Source of the DNA: a virus
DNA: 64,000 bases
Strand: one strand, 5' to 3'
IMG/VR virus record: IMGVR_UViG_3300028734_000021
Coordinates: 1 to 64,000 of that record
Made by a program: the position numbers and the translations under genes. The notes below the pieces were generated by a model that was given only the letters and a program-made list of their open reading frames with translations, did no database searches and was not told the DNA's origin. Positions within the stretch are counted from its first letter, which is position 1. Each line of letters begins with the position of its first letter. Positions 1,279 through 24,616 of the stretch are shown one piece after another.

Positions 1279-4200
1279 ATGGATAAAGTTTTAGAATTCT
1301 TTCAAGGTGATGAACTGGCCACAAAGGTTTGGAAAAATAAGTATAAATTTGGAGGTGAACAAACTCCAAAAGATATGTTTGAAAGACATATAAAAGAAAT
1401 TGCTGAAAAAGAATTTGAAAGAATTGCTTCACATAATTTAACAGGTGAACAATATGATAATCTTTCAAATTATGGTAAAAAACGTTGTTTTAATTATTTG
1501 GAAAATGATAGAATTCATTTAAATGAATCAATTATTGAAAATCTTCGAAATCAGTTAAATTTCAATGCTATTGTTCTTGGAGGAAGTCCGATGCAAGGAA
1601 TTGGAAATCATAAAATGTTTTCAAGTCTTAGTAATTGTTTTTTCGTTGGTCGTCCTTATGATTCATATTCCGGAATTAATCGCAAAGAAGATGAAATCGC
1701 ACAGTTAATGAAAAGGCGTGGAGGTGCTGGAATTGATTTAAGTTCAATTCGTCCAAATGGTGCAAAAGTTCACAATCAAGCATCAACAAGTTCAGGTGTT
1801 GTTCCATTTGCTGAAGGTTATAGTGCTAAAACAAAACAAGTAGCACAATATGGCAGACGAGGAGCATTAATGATTTCACTTTGTATGCAACATCCCGATT
1901 CTAAAGAATTTATCTTGTCTAAACAAGATGATACTAAAATGACAGGTGCAAATATTTCAGTAATTATTCCTGATGACTTTATGGAAGCTGTTGTTTCAGA
2001 TTCTGATTATCTTTTAAGATTTCCAGTTGATACTGATTTACATAAACAAGGTTGGCCATGTGGAATTGATGAATTACAATATAATGAATTAATTCAATTA
2101 AATAAAGGAGTTTATGTTAAGAAAATCAAAGCAAAAGAATATTGGCAAATATTAATTGAATGTGCTCATAAAACTGCTGAACCAGGAATTCTATTTTCTG
2201 GAAATTGGATGAAAGGTGGAACTGATTGGGTTTACGAACAATTTAGACCAATTGGCACAAATCCATGTTTCGTAGGCAATATGAATTTAAGAACTGAAGA
2301 TGGAGATGAAACTTTTTATGATTTAGCTCGAAAATGTGAAGTTGAATTTAAAGAACGAGGAAAATTTGCTTTAAATCTTGTAAATAAAGAAAATGAAATA
2401 GTTCCTGGAAGAGTTTGGCAAACAGGAATTAAAAGAATAATAACTTTACAACTTGATAATGGAACAATAATAACTTGTACTCCTAATCATGTGTTTTTAT
2501 CTGATGGTGAAGAATGTCAAGCTATTGATACTGAAGGTAAATGGTTAGAAGGTTTTGAAGAAGATTATCAAGTTATTGGAATTGTTGATAATGGTGAAGA
2601 AGAAGTTGTTTATGATTTTGAATTGAAAGGAACCAAAAAAGTTACTAAAGAATCAATAAAATCTGATGATATTTGTCATTGGGGTATTGTTCAGAATGTG
2701 ATTGCTCATAATTGTATGAAAGCAGATACTCCATTATTAACAGATACAGGATATTATCCAATTATTGATTTAGTTGGTTTAAAGGTTAATGTTTGGAATG
2801 GAACTAATTTTTCAGAAGTTGAACCAAAAATAACTGGAGAAAATCAAGAAATGTTAAAAATAACATTAAGTGATGGTTCTGAATTTGAATGCACTAAATA
2901 TCATAAATGGCCAACATGGACAGGATTAAAATCAAGAGATGGAAAAGTTTTAATGAAGGAAACACAACAATTAATTATTGGCGATAAATTACATAAATTT
3001 AATTTACCAATTATTGAATTTGGGGAAACAATTGATACTTCATTAATGTATTCACAAGGATTTTATTCTGGTGATGGAACAGCTGCAAGAAACTCAACAA
3101 GATTATATGGTGAAAAAATTAAACTTTCAACATTTTTAAAAGGTTCAATAAGTAATGATAATGAAAGACAAAACCATTATGGAACAGAATATGTTTGTTT
3201 TATATTTGATGATAAATTACAATCAAAATCATTTGTTCCAATAAATAAATATTCTATTAAATCTCGTTTAGATTGGTTTGCAGGTTTAATTGATGCTGAT
3301 GGAGTTGTAGCTCAAGATGGTAGTTGTCAAATTGTAAGTGTAAATAAACAATTCTTAAAAGATACTCGTTTAATGTTAACAACATTAGGTATTCCAAGTA
3401 AAATTAAATTAGCAAGAAAAGCTGGAAAATATAATTTGCCAGATCAAAAAGGTGGATTAATGTTAGTTGATTGTAATGAATGTAATCGTATTTTAATTAG
3501 TTCTGTAAATATGCAGAAATTATTAAAATTAGGATTAATAACACATAGATGTGATTATACAATTTTTAATCCAAATCGTGATGCAAATAGATTCATAATA
3601 ATTGAAAAAATTGAATCAATTCCAAATGAAGAAAAAGTTTACTGTTTTAATGAACCACAAAAACATATGGCTGTTTTTAATGGTATATTGTTAGGACAAT
3701 GTTCAGAAATACCAATGTCTGAATATGATGCTTGTAGACTATTGGCAAGAAATTTATATACTTTAGTTAAAAATCCATTTACATTAGAATCTGAACTTTT
3801 ATCAGATGATGAACTTTATTCAGCTTTTTATGAACAAATGATTATTGGTGATTTGTTAGTTGATTTAGAATTTGATTATATTGACAGAATTATTGAAAAA
3901 ATTAAATCAGGATCAGATCCTGATGATTTAAAACAATCAGAAATAAATATTTGGAATAAAATAGTTGACAAAGCAAAACAAGGAAGACGTTGTGGTGCAG
4001 GTTTTACAGGTTTTGGTGATATGTTGGCAGCTTTAGGATTACCATATTATTCACCAGAAGTAACTGAAAAAGTTTTCAAGATAAAAATGAAAGCTGAATT
4101 AGATGCAAGTATTGATATGGCCATACAATTCGGATCATTTATTGGATTTGATACTCAACTTGAAAAAAATGCTATTTATAATCTTGAAGTAATTGCAAAA

Positions 4201-5358
4201 GAATTTCCTGAACAATATGCAAGAATGTTGGAATTTGGAAGAAGAAATGTTTCTTGGTCAACAGGAGCTCCAGTTGGAACAGGAAGTATGATGGTTCAAA
4301 CAACTTCCGGAGTTGAACCTTTATTTTTACCATTTATGGAAAGAAAATTAAAGTGTATTTTACCAACTGATCGAGTTGATTATATTGATCCTGCTGATAA
4401 ACAAGCATATTCATTAAATTATTTAATGCATCCAAAATTCATTACTTGGTATATTGAATATATTAGAATATCGATACCTAATATGGATTTAGATTTTATT
4501 AAGATAAAAACATATTTGGAACAATTATCAAATGATGAATTAAATAAAATATTTGAACAAAGTCCTTGGTATAAATCATGTGCAAATGATTTAAATTATC
4601 ATCAAAGAGTTGAAATTCAATCAATTGTTCAAAAATATACAACACATGCAATTTCTTCAACAATAAATTTACCAAATGATATTGATGTTTCTGTTATTGG
4701 TAATATTTATATGGAATCTTGGTTATCAGGATTAAAAGGAAATACTGTATATCGTGAAGGTTCAAGAAGTGGAATAATTACTGCAATTAGTGATAAAAAA
4801 ATTGATGAAAATAATTCAATATTAACTGAAGATGATTTTGAACCAATTTATGCTCCAAAAAGACCAAAAATTCTTACAGCTCATTATCATACTTTAAGAT
4901 ATAAAAAGAAAACTTATTCAGTTATTCTTGGATTTTATAAAAATAGACTTTTTGAAATATTCATAATATCTGGAGTGGAAAATATACCTGAAGTTTTTGA
5001 TGAATTTGAAGATTTTATTTTAGGTGAAACTGTAAAAGATAATGAAAATTGGTATAATTTTGAATCTGAAACTTTTACTGTTCGTGAAATTTCTGATGTT
5101 GAAGGTGAAGAAAAAATGTTATCTTTAATGTTGAGTGGATTACTTCGAGGTAGAACACCAATTGAAAAAGTAATAAAAATATTGAATAAATTACAACCAA
5201 TTGCAGGAAATTTTACACATCGTTTAATTAAAATTTTATCTCATTATGTTGGTGAAGTAGAAAATATTAATAATGATGAATTATGTCCTGAATGTAATGA
5301 AAAATTACGTCATGAAAATGGTTGTGTTATTTGTGTTAATGGACATTCAAAATGTTAA
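1279..5358 (+). CDS. nrdJ: class II (adenosylcobalamin-type) ribonucleotide reductase with two tandem inteins
   Basis: Reduces ribonucleotides to deoxyribonucleotides for phage DNA synthesis. The 1359-residue precursor shows RNR landmarks: GGSPMQGIGN (101-110), a redox-type Cys in SNC (Cys120), RRGGAGIDLS, GRRGALM, TGANIS, and after the interruption NP-CSEI with the thiyl-radical cysteine (Cys808), then the TTSGVEPLF loop. The Cys-rich tail (CPEC, CVIC, HSKC at the C-terminus) is typical of class II NrdJ and argues against class I, as does the absence of an adjacent nrdB. Residues 330-807 are two complete inteins set end to end between Pro329 and Cys808; removing both leaves 881 residues, a normal NrdJ size. 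A terminator follows at 5381. Assignment to class II rather than another cobalamin-independent form is family knowledge; both inteins being active is inference. Confidence 0.93.
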   Translation: MDKVLEFFQGDELATKVWKNKYKFGGEQTPKDMFERHIKEIAEKEFERIASHNLTGEQYDNLSNYGKKRCFNYLENDRIHLNESIIENLRNQLNFNAIVLGGSPMQGIGNHKMFSSLSNCFFVGRPYDSYSGINRKEDEIAQLMKRRGGAGIDLSSIRPNGAKVHNQASTSSGVVPFAEGYSAKTKQVAQYGRRGALMISLCMQHPDSKEFILSKQDDTKMTGANISVIIPDDFMEAVVSDSDYLLRFPVDTDLHKQGWPCGIDELQYNELIQLNKGVYVKKIKAKEYWQILIECAHKTAEPGILFSGNWMKGGTDWVYEQFRPIGTNPCFVGNMNLRTEDGDETFYDLARKCEVEFKERGKFALNLVNKENEIVPGRVWQTGIKRIITLQLDNGTIITCTPNHVFLSDGEECQAIDTEGKWLEGFEEDYQVIGIVDNGEEEVVYDFELKGTKKVTKESIKSDDICHWGIVQNVIAHNCMKADTPLLTDTGYYPIIDLVGLKVNVWNGTNFSEVEPKITGENQEMLKITLSDGSEFECTKYHKWPTWTGLKSRDGKVLMKETQQLIIGDKLHKFNLPIIEFGETIDTSLMYSQGFYSGDGTAARNSTRLYGEKIKLSTFLKGSISNDNERQNHYGTEYVCFIFDDKLQSKSFVPINKYSIKSRLDWFAGLIDADGVVAQDGSCQIVSVNKQFLKDTRLMLTTLGIPSKIKLARKAGKYNLPDQKGGLMLVDCNECNRILISSVNMQKLLKLGLITHRCDYTIFNPNRDANRFIIIEKIESIPNEEKVYCFNEPQKHMAVFNGILLGQCSEIPMSEYDACRLLARNLYTLVKNPFTLESELLSDDELYSAFYEQMIIGDLLVDLEFDYIDRIIEKIKSGSDPDDLKQSEINIWNKIVDKAKQGRRCGAGFTGFGDMLAALGLPYYSPEVTEKVFKIKMKAELDASIDMAIQFGSFIGFDTQLEKNAIYNLEVIAKEFPEQYARMLEFGRRNVSWSTGAPVGTGSMMVQTTSGVEPLFLPFMERKLKCILPTDRVDYIDPADKQAYSLNYLMHPKFITWYIEYIRISIPNMDLDFIKIKTYLEQLSNDELNKIFEQSPWYKSCANDLNYHQRVEIQSIVQKYTTHAISSTINLPNDIDVSVIGNIYMESWLSGLKGNTVYREGSRSGIITAISDKKIDENNSILTEDDFEPIYAPKRPKILTAHYHTLRYKKKTYSVILGFYKNRLFEIFIISGVENIPEVFDEFEDFILGETVKDNENWYNFESETFTVREISDVEGEEKMLSLMLSGLLRGRTPIEKVIKILNKLQPIAGNFTHRLIKILSHYVGEVENINNDELCPECNEKLRHENGCVICVNGHSKC
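2266..2712 (+). other. intein 1 in NrdJ (mini-intein, 149 aa)
   Basis: Residues 330-478. It begins with Cys330, has a block-B-type TxxH (CTPNHVF) and a block-F segment (VVYDFELKGT), and ends VIAHN, directly followed by a Cys. No LAGLIDADG motifs are present, so it is a minimal splicing domain. Its +1 residue is not extein but the first residue of intein 2. Confidence 0.88.
2713..3699 (+). other. intein 2 in NrdJ with LAGLIDADG endonuclease (329 aa)
   Basis: Residues 479-807. It starts at Cys479 (CMKADTPLLTDTG), has TKYH as block B, two homing-endonuclease motifs (GFYSGDGT and GLIDADGVV), a block F (KVYCFNEPQ) and ends NGILLGQ before Cys808. A terminal Gln instead of Asn is known in some RNR inteins. 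The endonuclease part makes this the likely mobile one of the pair. Confidence 0.9.
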
Positions 5359-5425: not shown

Positions 5426-5779
5426 ATGAAAAATAAGGATATAAACAATATTATAATAAAAACAAAATTTATGGTTGAATCAATTAAAATATCTGAAGAA
5501 AAATTTAAACAAACAGATGAAGAAATTTTAGAATCAATAAAAGAACTTTATCTTTATACCAAAAAACATTGTTTTTATAAAAAATTTAGATTAAATTATT
5601 CATATGAAGATGAAGAAAAAGTTTTAATATTAAATGAAAAACATATTGATATTGATTTACATCAATCAGAAGAAGATAATATTAAAATAATATTCAAATT
5701 TCAGAAAGAAAAAGTTGGTTTTAAGTTTTGGGAATATTCAGAAGAATATTTCGATTTTATTAATTCATTTGAAATTTAA
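5426..5779 (+). CDS. hypothetical protein, 117 aa
   Basis: Lys/Glu-rich soluble protein, no recognised domain. The ATG lies only 15 bases past the terminator hairpin and no phage promoter box is visible in front of it, so expression probably depends on read-through or an unseen promoter. Confidence 0.65.
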   Translation: MKNKDINNIIIKTKFMVESIKISEEKFKQTDEEILESIKELYLYTKKHCFYKKFRLNYSYEDEEKVLILNEKHIDIDLHQSEEDNIKIIFKFQKEKVGFKFWEYSEEYFDFINSFEI

Positions 5780-8866: not shown

Positions 8867-10462
8867 ATGGAGGATCAAATTGGAGGTTCATTGACTCAAA
8901 CTGAAAAAGATTTAATCGAGTTTGATAAGAAAATGTTAGCAAGAGCTTATAAAGAAGCTGAAAAATCAACTGCAAATAAACGAAAAGTTGGTGCAATTAT
9001 TGTCAATATGGAAATTGGACAAGAATTAGAAATTAGTTCAGGTCATAATATGATGTTTCCAGAATTACATAAAAGAAATATTGGATGTGAAAATTCAGAA
9101 GGAAAAACATATGAATGTGTTGTTCATGCTGAAGAATCAGCAATTATGAAAATGTTGATACATTATGGAGAAAAATATAATAATTTTAATAAAACAATTT
9201 ATGTAACTTATTCACCTTGCATGAATTGTGCTAAATTAATTGCTGGTACAGGAATTAAACGTATTGTTTATTGTGAAGAACATGAAAAAAACTTTCAAAA
9301 TACAAACATACTAAATGGCTTTAGTCCTAAAGGATTTTTATTAGCTATGGGAGTTGAATTAGTTCAATATCCAAGTATTGGTGAAATTTGTAGACAAAAA
9401 CCATATACATTTGAATTATCAGTTGTAACTGATTTGAAAGATAAAATTTCAATTGAATCTAAACCACAAAAAATTGCTTTGGTTTATCATTCAGCTGATT
9501 CAGATGGTCTTATGTCTGGTTATTTATTGTCAAAAATATTTCGAGATGAAATTGAATTAGAAAATGCTGATTTAATTCCATATAATTATGGAATAGATGA
9601 TGATTTTTTAAGAAACAGAGAATATATAAGATATATTTTTGTTGATGTTACACCTCCAATTGAATGGTTAGAAGCAAATATTGATAAAATTGGAAAAGAT
9701 TTTGATATTGAAATTTTTGACCATCATGCTCCTAAATTTGATGAAATTTTTGGAAAGTTTTCAAATTTATTTGGAAAAGGTTTAAACTATACTTTTAGTG
9801 ATTGTATGTCAGGTTGTAAAATTCTTTTTATTCATTTATATATAGAATTTATTGATTCTGAATTTAATGATTACTTAGAATTAATGGTAAATTTCATATC
9901 CGATTATGATACTTGGAAATTTTCTGAAAAAGATTATCATTTTGATTATAAAATTAAAAACATATTTAAGGATTTATTAAGAACATATGTAAAAAATGAT
10001 GTTCTTGCTTTCAATATGTATTTACAACAATTACATAAACTTGATGATTTTTGCATAATGATTGATAAAACATTATCATCAAAATCTTTTGAAAGTGAAA
10101 TTAAAAATATTATTTATAACGGAAATACAATTATTAATAAGATTGAATCTGATAATGAACAAATAATTGAAAAATCACAATATCTTGAAGAATTTCCGAT
10201 AGTAATTTATCAAGGTTATCCTAATTATTTTTTACAAATTCAATTATTGGAAAGATATCCTGAATTAAAATATTGGATAGGTTTTCAAATTGATCTTGAA
10301 AAACAACAAATTAAATTTTCCATAAGATCACAATCTCAAAATGATTGTAATTTAATGGCTAAAAAGTTTAATGGTGGTGGACATAAAAAAGCTGCTGGAT
10401 TTATAACTGAATTAAATACAGGATTCAGTTTTTTATCACATCCTGAAAAAATAATTCTTTAA
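8867..10462 (+). CDS. fusion of dCMP/cytidine-type deaminase and DHH/DHHA1 phosphoesterase, 531 aa
   Basis: Residues 1-190 are a zinc-dependent nucleotide deaminase: catalytic HAE (87-89) and PCMNC (117-121). dCMP deaminases feed dUMP to thymidylate synthesis. Residues 200-531 are a DHH-superfamily phosphoesterase: HSADSDG (208-214), FVDVTPP, FDHH (DHH 285-287), SDYDTW (345-350) and a C-terminal DHHA1 motif GGGHKKAAGF (503-512). DHH/DHHA1 enzymes cleave short oligonucleotides and cyclic dinucleotides such as c-di-AMP or pApA. All metal-binding motifs appear intact in both halves. No frameshift or stop lies at the junction, so the fusion is real. It may salvage nucleotides from degraded host nucleic acid, or remove a signalling nucleotide; the second is speculation. 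Confidence 0.88.
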   Translation: MEDQIGGSLTQTEKDLIEFDKKMLARAYKEAEKSTANKRKVGAIIVNMEIGQELEISSGHNMMFPELHKRNIGCENSEGKTYECVVHAEESAIMKMLIHYGEKYNNFNKTIYVTYSPCMNCAKLIAGTGIKRIVYCEEHEKNFQNTNILNGFSPKGFLLAMGVELVQYPSIGEICRQKPYTFELSVVTDLKDKISIESKPQKIALVYHSADSDGLMSGYLLSKIFRDEIELENADLIPYNYGIDDDFLRNREYIRYIFVDVTPPIEWLEANIDKIGKDFDIEIFDHHAPKFDEIFGKFSNLFGKGLNYTFSDCMSGCKILFIHLYIEFIDSEFNDYLELMVNFISDYDTWKFSEKDYHFDYKIKNIFKDLLRTYVKNDVLAFNMYLQQLHKLDDFCIMIDKTLSSKSFESEIKNIIYNGNTIINKIESDNEQIIEKSQYLEEFPIVIYQGYPNYFLQIQLLERYPELKYWIGFQIDLEKQQIKFSIRSQSQNDCNLMAKKFNGGGHKKAAGFITELNTGFSFLSHPEKIIL

Positions 10463-24170: not shown

Positions 24171-24616
24171 GGGGGTGTTTGGTTTTGACAGCAATTTCAA
24201 TAGGATTTAATGCAGCCGATGTTGAGTAAGTCATCGTTAAAAAGATTCACAATTATTAATCGACAAAAAACAAAACATTCAGAAGGATAACAAGGTTATT
24301 GCTTTTGTAAGTAACGTAGTTAAAAGTGCAATGTCTAAATGGAATGAAGTTGATGAAACTCCGGTTTATTCAATTAATCGTTCACAATTAGCAATGGCTG
24401 TTTAATCTTAGATTTTTATTTTGTATTAAAAGGTTATGTGTTTGAGTAAAAACACTTTGGTGTGATTTGGAGGATAACTCACGTTTTCATTCAGTCCCAA
24501 TATTTTGTTTGTTTTTAATTAATTGAAATGTTTAATCAATTAATATAAAATAAAATAAGCTGTAGATTTAAATTTGTTTGGTTGTTTGGACGGCGGTTCG
24601 ACTCCGCCCACTTCCA
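24171..24616 (+). ncRNA. ssrA: transfer-messenger RNA (tmRNA)
   Basis: Rescues stalled ribosomes and tags the unfinished peptide. The 5' end GGGGGTG (24171-24177) pairs with CACTTCC (24609-24615) as a 7-bp acceptor stem with two G-U pairs, discriminator A at 24616, CCA not encoded. The T arm GGCGG-TTCGACT-CCGCC (24592-24608) is perfect, and the 5' segment GGTTTTGACAGC matches the tmRNA D-like region. P2 is supported by ATTTAATGCAGC pairing with GCTGTA(gat)TTAAAT. A tag frame runs from GCA at 24328 to TAA at 24403-24405 and would encode 25 residues beginning AMSKWNEVDE and ending SQLAMAV. The ending resembles the bacterial ALAA-type degron; the tag is longer than the usual host tag. Resume codon is my best estimate. 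Confidence 0.9.

Follow-up and report, generated by a model that had tools for sequence, protein, structure and literature searches.

The stretch of viral DNA analysed here (the window, 64,000 nucleotides) is part of a single metagenomic IMG/VR virus record of 68,093 bases. Positions 1279–5358 on the plus strand form one open reading frame of 1359 amino acids, free of internal stops, whose product is a class II (B12-dependent) ribonucleotide reductase (RNR), NrdJ (TIGR02504 NrdJ_Z, PF02867). The host protein is interrupted by 478 residues between Pro329 and Cys808, at NP/CSEI (slashes denote insertion points and intein boundaries), and the interruption is made up of two inteins. The gene is organized as follows:

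1279–2265, plus strand: N-extein of NrdJ, residues 1–329, ending in GTNP (TIGR02504, PF02867; 63% identity to the N-extein of the related virus L003).
2266–2712, plus strand: intein 1, a mini-intein of 149 amino acids, residues 330–478, CFVGN...VIAHN (TIGR01445; AF2 model and Foldseek; same-site homologues).
2713–2715, plus strand: codon TGT of Cys479 (sequence; HMM boundaries; start of tblastn matches).
2713–3699, plus strand: intein 2, a LAGLIDADG intein of 329 amino acids, residues 479–807, CMKAD...LLGQ (TIGR01445, PF14528; same-site homologues).
3700–5355, plus strand: C-extein of NrdJ, residues 808–1359, starting with CSEIP (extein alignment).

The residue numbering given in a preliminary description of the locus (1–329, 330–478, 479–807 and Cys808 onward) proved to be exact. 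In alignments, the exteins are conserved, including the invariant RNR residues. When aligned by way of the intein-less NrdJ of crAss001, Cys808 corresponds to residue 322 of Thermotoga maritima NrdJ, which we take to be the thiyl radical site. The exteins thus join at the radical cysteine, as had been proposed. Because this cysteine is kept apart from the NP strand until the last splice, the unspliced precursor should be inactive.

Intein 1 lacks an endonuclease. Both class 1 nucleophiles are present (Cys330 at position 1 and Cys479 at +1), block B reads TPNH, with the T and H invariant across the family alignment, and blocks F and G contain VYDF (Asp at F:4), CHWGIV with its His, and the C-terminal AHN. 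These catalytic positions are conserved in ten aligned mini-inteins, apart from the block F His, which is Asn in some. An AlphaFold (AF2) model of intein 1 had a pLDDT of 87.9, and a Foldseek search with this model gave 59 matches at E ≤ 0.001; the 50 listed comprise inteins and intein-like Hint domains, headed by the solved Ssp and Npu DnaB, gp41-1, Npu DnaE and NrdJ-1 (8ubs) inteins. The model predicts a Hint fold. The residues at +2 and +3 are Met-Lys, where the family form is [G/A/S]-Glu, and there is an insertion of about 13 residues inside the block F region; both features could slow intein 1.

The family to which intein 1 belongs has the signature CFTGDMKLLT...HWGVVEGVVAHN. Phage RNRs commonly contain its members, both as mini-inteins and in endonuclease-bearing form (L014, the Nodularia phage L089 and dozens of further loci). 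A single-query scan found no close relatives of intein 1, and a scan with an alignment as the query yielded 57 loci, a few of whose weaker matches (e.g., L211–L213) may belong to other proteins. Some members of the family (L167, L169, L172–L176 and others, near position 3001) appear shifted by one residue, NPC/CFTG..., like the NrdJ-1 site.

Intein 2 likewise has the class 1 residues, with Cys479, TKYH in block B and Cys808 at +1. Block F (VYCF...KHMAVFNG) has kept its His, the two LAGLIDADG motifs (QGFYSGDG and AGLIDADG) have both acidic residues, and the intein matches PF14528 with 39.8 bits and the solved gp41-1 intein with an E value of 3e-5. The C-terminus is Gly-Gln instead of the usual, though not obligatory, penultimate His followed by Asn. 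Since Gly-Gln is the common form among 22 aligned members of the family, we see no sign of decay in this ending. The RNR intein of Chilo iridescent virus, which is single, unlike the pair in the window, also has a native C-terminal Gln, and is reported to splice well, better than with Asn (PMC4031507).

Members of the intein 2 family occur widely in the NrdA and NrdJ proteins of phages. In the family tree, intein 2 of the window joins the NrdJ members L002, L063, L100 and L093 (support 98/94). The second LAGLIDADG motif of L002 (near position 5700) reads LAGIIDSKG; its endonuclease is probably inactive, because Lys replaces the catalytic Asp. Elsewhere in the family, the inteins of L122–L124 and L136 (near position 3001) lie at an ENIH/SETYSLLI motif, in a protein that looks like the RNR small subunit.

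Both inteins scored above the cut-off (24.5 bits) of the curated intein N-terminal model TIGR01445, with 30.6 bits for intein 1 and 26.0 bits for intein 2. A custom HMM of intein N-termini, trained on 28 intein starts with the two from the window among them, matched the reading frame twice (E values of 6e-21 and 3e-27), with position 1 at Cys330 and Cys479. With the catalytic positions of both kept, the two inteins are complete, as the preliminary description had stated. Asn478, the last residue of intein 1, directly abuts Cys479, the first of intein 2. The claim that no extein lies between them stands, since the HN/C junction is direct in the sequence and the HMM boundaries agree with it. Cys479 is thus common to both inteins, standing at +1 for intein 1 and at position 1 for intein 2. 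The usual arrangement in multi-intein proteins, with separate sites and extein between them, does not apply to a pair with zero intervening residues. When the two intein families were aligned jointly, one Hint domain was shifted so as to match the other, and a tandem AlphaFold model from a three-row alignment was uninformative, with a pLDDT of 34. An alternative start inside the frame, at Met480, was rejected because the sequence shows no clear ribosome-binding site and intein 2 would lose its Cys1.

The same site was compared across about 80 viral NrdJ loci, leaving out five (L020, L032, L035, L050 and L077) that gave no clean alignment. In most, NP is followed directly by C, and about a dozen carry one intein of 134–406 residues at exactly this point. 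Residues 330–478 are thus not ordinary RNR sequence. An intein of the intein 1 type occurs alone at NP/C in L003, with 56% identity to intein 1 of the window, and one of the intein 2 type occurs alone there in L002, L063 and L100. By sequence homology, each intein is already known singly from this site in other phages. L003 is a sister virus, with a portal protein 80% identical to that of the window and shared dCMP deaminase and DHH genes. These last two, the dCMP deaminase and a DHH phosphoesterase, form one reading frame of 531 amino acids in the window (8867–10462) and two adjacent genes in L003. A tmRNA called by ARAGORN at 24171–24616 of the window, near three tRNAs, has an odd tag of 25 residues and may be false. 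In L077 (upstream of position 5001) and in L032, L035 and L050 (near position 5000), the RNR exteins fail to align in a single frame around NP/C, possibly because of split inteins, introns or other insertions; the insert in L077 ends in HNFFANGLLIHN, followed by CGEIP.

The metagenomic source, and the separate occurrence of both alleles in other viruses, raise the question of whether the assembly could have fused an allele with intein 1 to one with intein 2. We consider such an artefact extremely improbable: alleles that share their flanks produce a bubble rather than a tandem, the HN/C junction has to come from direct reading, the fusion is precise and keeps the reading frame, and both inteins are similar to the exteins in base composition. 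It is also quite improbable that one or both inteins are degenerate remnants and that the gene yields no active enzyme. While only a single assembled copy is available, the frame is open over 1359 codons, the catalytic positions are kept in both inteins, and the extein conservation extends to the invariant RNR residues.

Class 1 splicing requires residue 1, the +1 residue and a C-terminal Asn or Gln. Intein 1 has such a set in Cys330, Cys479 and Asn478, and intein 2 in Cys479, Cys808 and Gln807, with Cys479 serving one intein at a time, either as a free thiol (intein 1) or as a thioester (intein 2). We infer both splicing activity and the order of excision. Each intein would be excised by the standard four steps. 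With intein 1 out first, NP would be joined to Cys479, placing intein 2 in its native NP/CSEI context; with intein 2 out first, intein 1 would be joined to Cys808, also in its native NP/CSEI context. The preliminary description had held that the order of splicing is constrained. This does not follow: either first excision leaves a normal single-intein precursor, and since both orders end in NP-CSEI, a fixed order is not required. The active enzyme would be identical whichever intein goes first.

The preliminary description had also allowed that the pair could leave as one unit by way of Cys330 and Gln807. In such a composite exit, the N-terminal half of intein 1 would work with the C-terminal half of intein 2 to release 478 residues, with Cys330 as the nucleophile, Cys808 at +1 and Gln807 cyclising. 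In principle, homologous Hint halves may react across inteins, as is established for some pairs, and the two outer halves are intact, so that this exit is possible on paper. However, the inner halves, which it would not need, are fully conserved (block F and HN in the case of intein 1, Cys1 and TKYH in that of intein 2), and the two intein families are divergent in sequence. As the main path, we regard composite exit as very improbable. A broader proposal, that the two active sites exclude each other through the shared Cys479 and so lead either to an ordered two-step maturation or to composite excision as a single unit, is possible, though we are doubtful of it.

Alternatively, intein 2 might leave first, and intein 1, slowed by its changed +2/+3 context, would be spliced onto Cys808 afterwards. 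This order is chemically complete and restores the native context of intein 1, which now faces Cys-Met-Lys and not Cys-[GAS]-Glu. However, it would place Asn478 at the −1 position of intein 2, where nearly all RNR large-subunit relatives of the family have Leu or Pro, and the Asn478 side chain could attack the thioester, leading to cleavage of the chain. Off-pathway N-terminal cleavage from such thioester intermediates has been described (PMC4031507). We therefore think it unlikely that intein 2 is the first to go. Since that order puts a cleavage-prone Asn at −1 of the thioester, excision of intein 1 first is most likely the main route, as far as can be judged from sequence. In this favoured route, Cys330 would form a thioester that is attacked by Cys479, Asn478 would cyclise, and intein 1 would leave; Cys479 would then act as residue 1 and Cys808 as +1, Gln807 would cyclise, and intein 2 would leave.

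Between the window and L003, the identity is 63% in the N-extein, 56% in intein 1 and 59% in the C-extein. The divergence of intein 1 is close to that of the exteins, so it is most likely old, passed down vertically in the gene from a time before the two viruses separated. As in the exteins, the identity of intein 1 to its L003 counterpart is higher at second codon positions (0.72) than at third (0.58), which fits vertical inheritance under protein-level constraint. Intein 2 probably arrived later, by gain in the lineage of the window; its loss in L003 is less probable. These comparisons show the relative ages of the two inteins indirectly. Sliding identity against L003 showed no clear dip of the kind expected had the C-extein been co-converted along with intein 2.

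Intein 2 would have been added at the right-hand junction of intein 1. The half of the intein 2 homing site that the C-extein supplies is intact on the right-hand side of intein 1, and the left half has been replaced, with 4 of 20 bases matching, which is the chance level. With the left half-site missing, ordinary homing alone would not be sufficient for the insertion. The triplet TGT is common to all junctions, both inteins and the C-extein starting with Cys. The second insertion may have come about through a cut that depended on the right half of the site or through microhomology at TGT during repair, each of which would give the observed order. Overall, we consider it likely that the window encodes two independent class 1 inteins of different lineages in tandem at the one site NP/C, an old intein 1 and a later intein 2, which splice by the standard pathway, intein 1 probably first.

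The preliminary description had suggested that directly adjoining inteins are very rare, and this was borne out: no second such pair was found in 154 loci, 283 phage records or motif-limited pattern scans. Among the 154 loci with intein N-terminal matches, adjoining inteins occur in the window (its own record, L001) only, and the nearest other pairs are separated by about 10–12 residues (L137, L141 and L148) or about 40 (L165). None of the 58 intein 2 family loci inspected had an upstream residue from an adjoining intein. A tblastn search with the junction region matched 283 phage records, none of which reaches 80% coverage of the query; for the 40 that were listed, Cys479 is the exact start of the match. 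When IMG/VR and 84,980 genomes of bacteria and archaea were scanned by pattern, no canonical tandem junction was found with HNC[LF]xGDTxxxT (genomes and viruses) or HNCVxPET (viruses), patterns that catch only some motif variants. Of the 13 stretches returned, none is a tandem, and the HN of those that precede an intein belongs to the host protein. The close pairs in L141 (near position 1953), L148 (near 3001) and L137 (near 2324) are in RNR genes, with host residues between the inteins as in HN/SEIILRPYQF/CVSPDT and ITGN/CAEQPLESFEL/CVSGDT.

No description of directly adjoining inteins was found in the open full-text literature; as the search covered open-access text, novelty is not proven. 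An “intein duplication” (PMC3024317) was rejected as a precedent, being a plasmid pop-in and not a natural tandem.

The radical-cysteine inteins of other RNRs (RIR1, NrdA and NrdJ, including NrdA of a Staphylococcus phage and of Vibrio phage ICP1, and a Nodularia phage) belong to the same families, with the same catalytic residues and the same or an equivalent insertion point (NP/C or NL/C), but there is one per site, with extein on both sides, whereas the window has two. NrdJ-1, whose structure (8ubs) was matched by the intein 1 model, likewise lies at the NPC motif of NrdJ and differs from the pair in being a single, split intein. Its insertion point lies one residue further on, and its +1 residue is Ser. 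Two inteins per protein are also found in the DNA polymerase of Thermococcus kodakarensis, CDC21 of Pyrococcus abyssi and the haloarchaeal MCM-a and MCM-d, but there the inteins occupy separate sites and host residues intervene, in contrast to the one site and zero residues of the window. Separations of 85 and 48 residues have been cited for such genes (PMC8966425), which sometimes pair a mini-intein with an endonuclease-bearing neighbour (PMC8966425, PMC10643990).

The pair suggests that occupation of a site gives it incomplete protection against a further intein. If the sharing of Cys479 does impose an ordered maturation, which we doubt, the NrdJ precursor would be a natural splicing relay in which Cys479 acts first as the +1 nucleophile and then as residue 1. 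The pair also lends itself, as a natural system, to testing whether two adjoining Hint domains can make use of one catalytic cysteine, and in what order they splice, and its layout could serve protein engineering by ordered tandem splicing.
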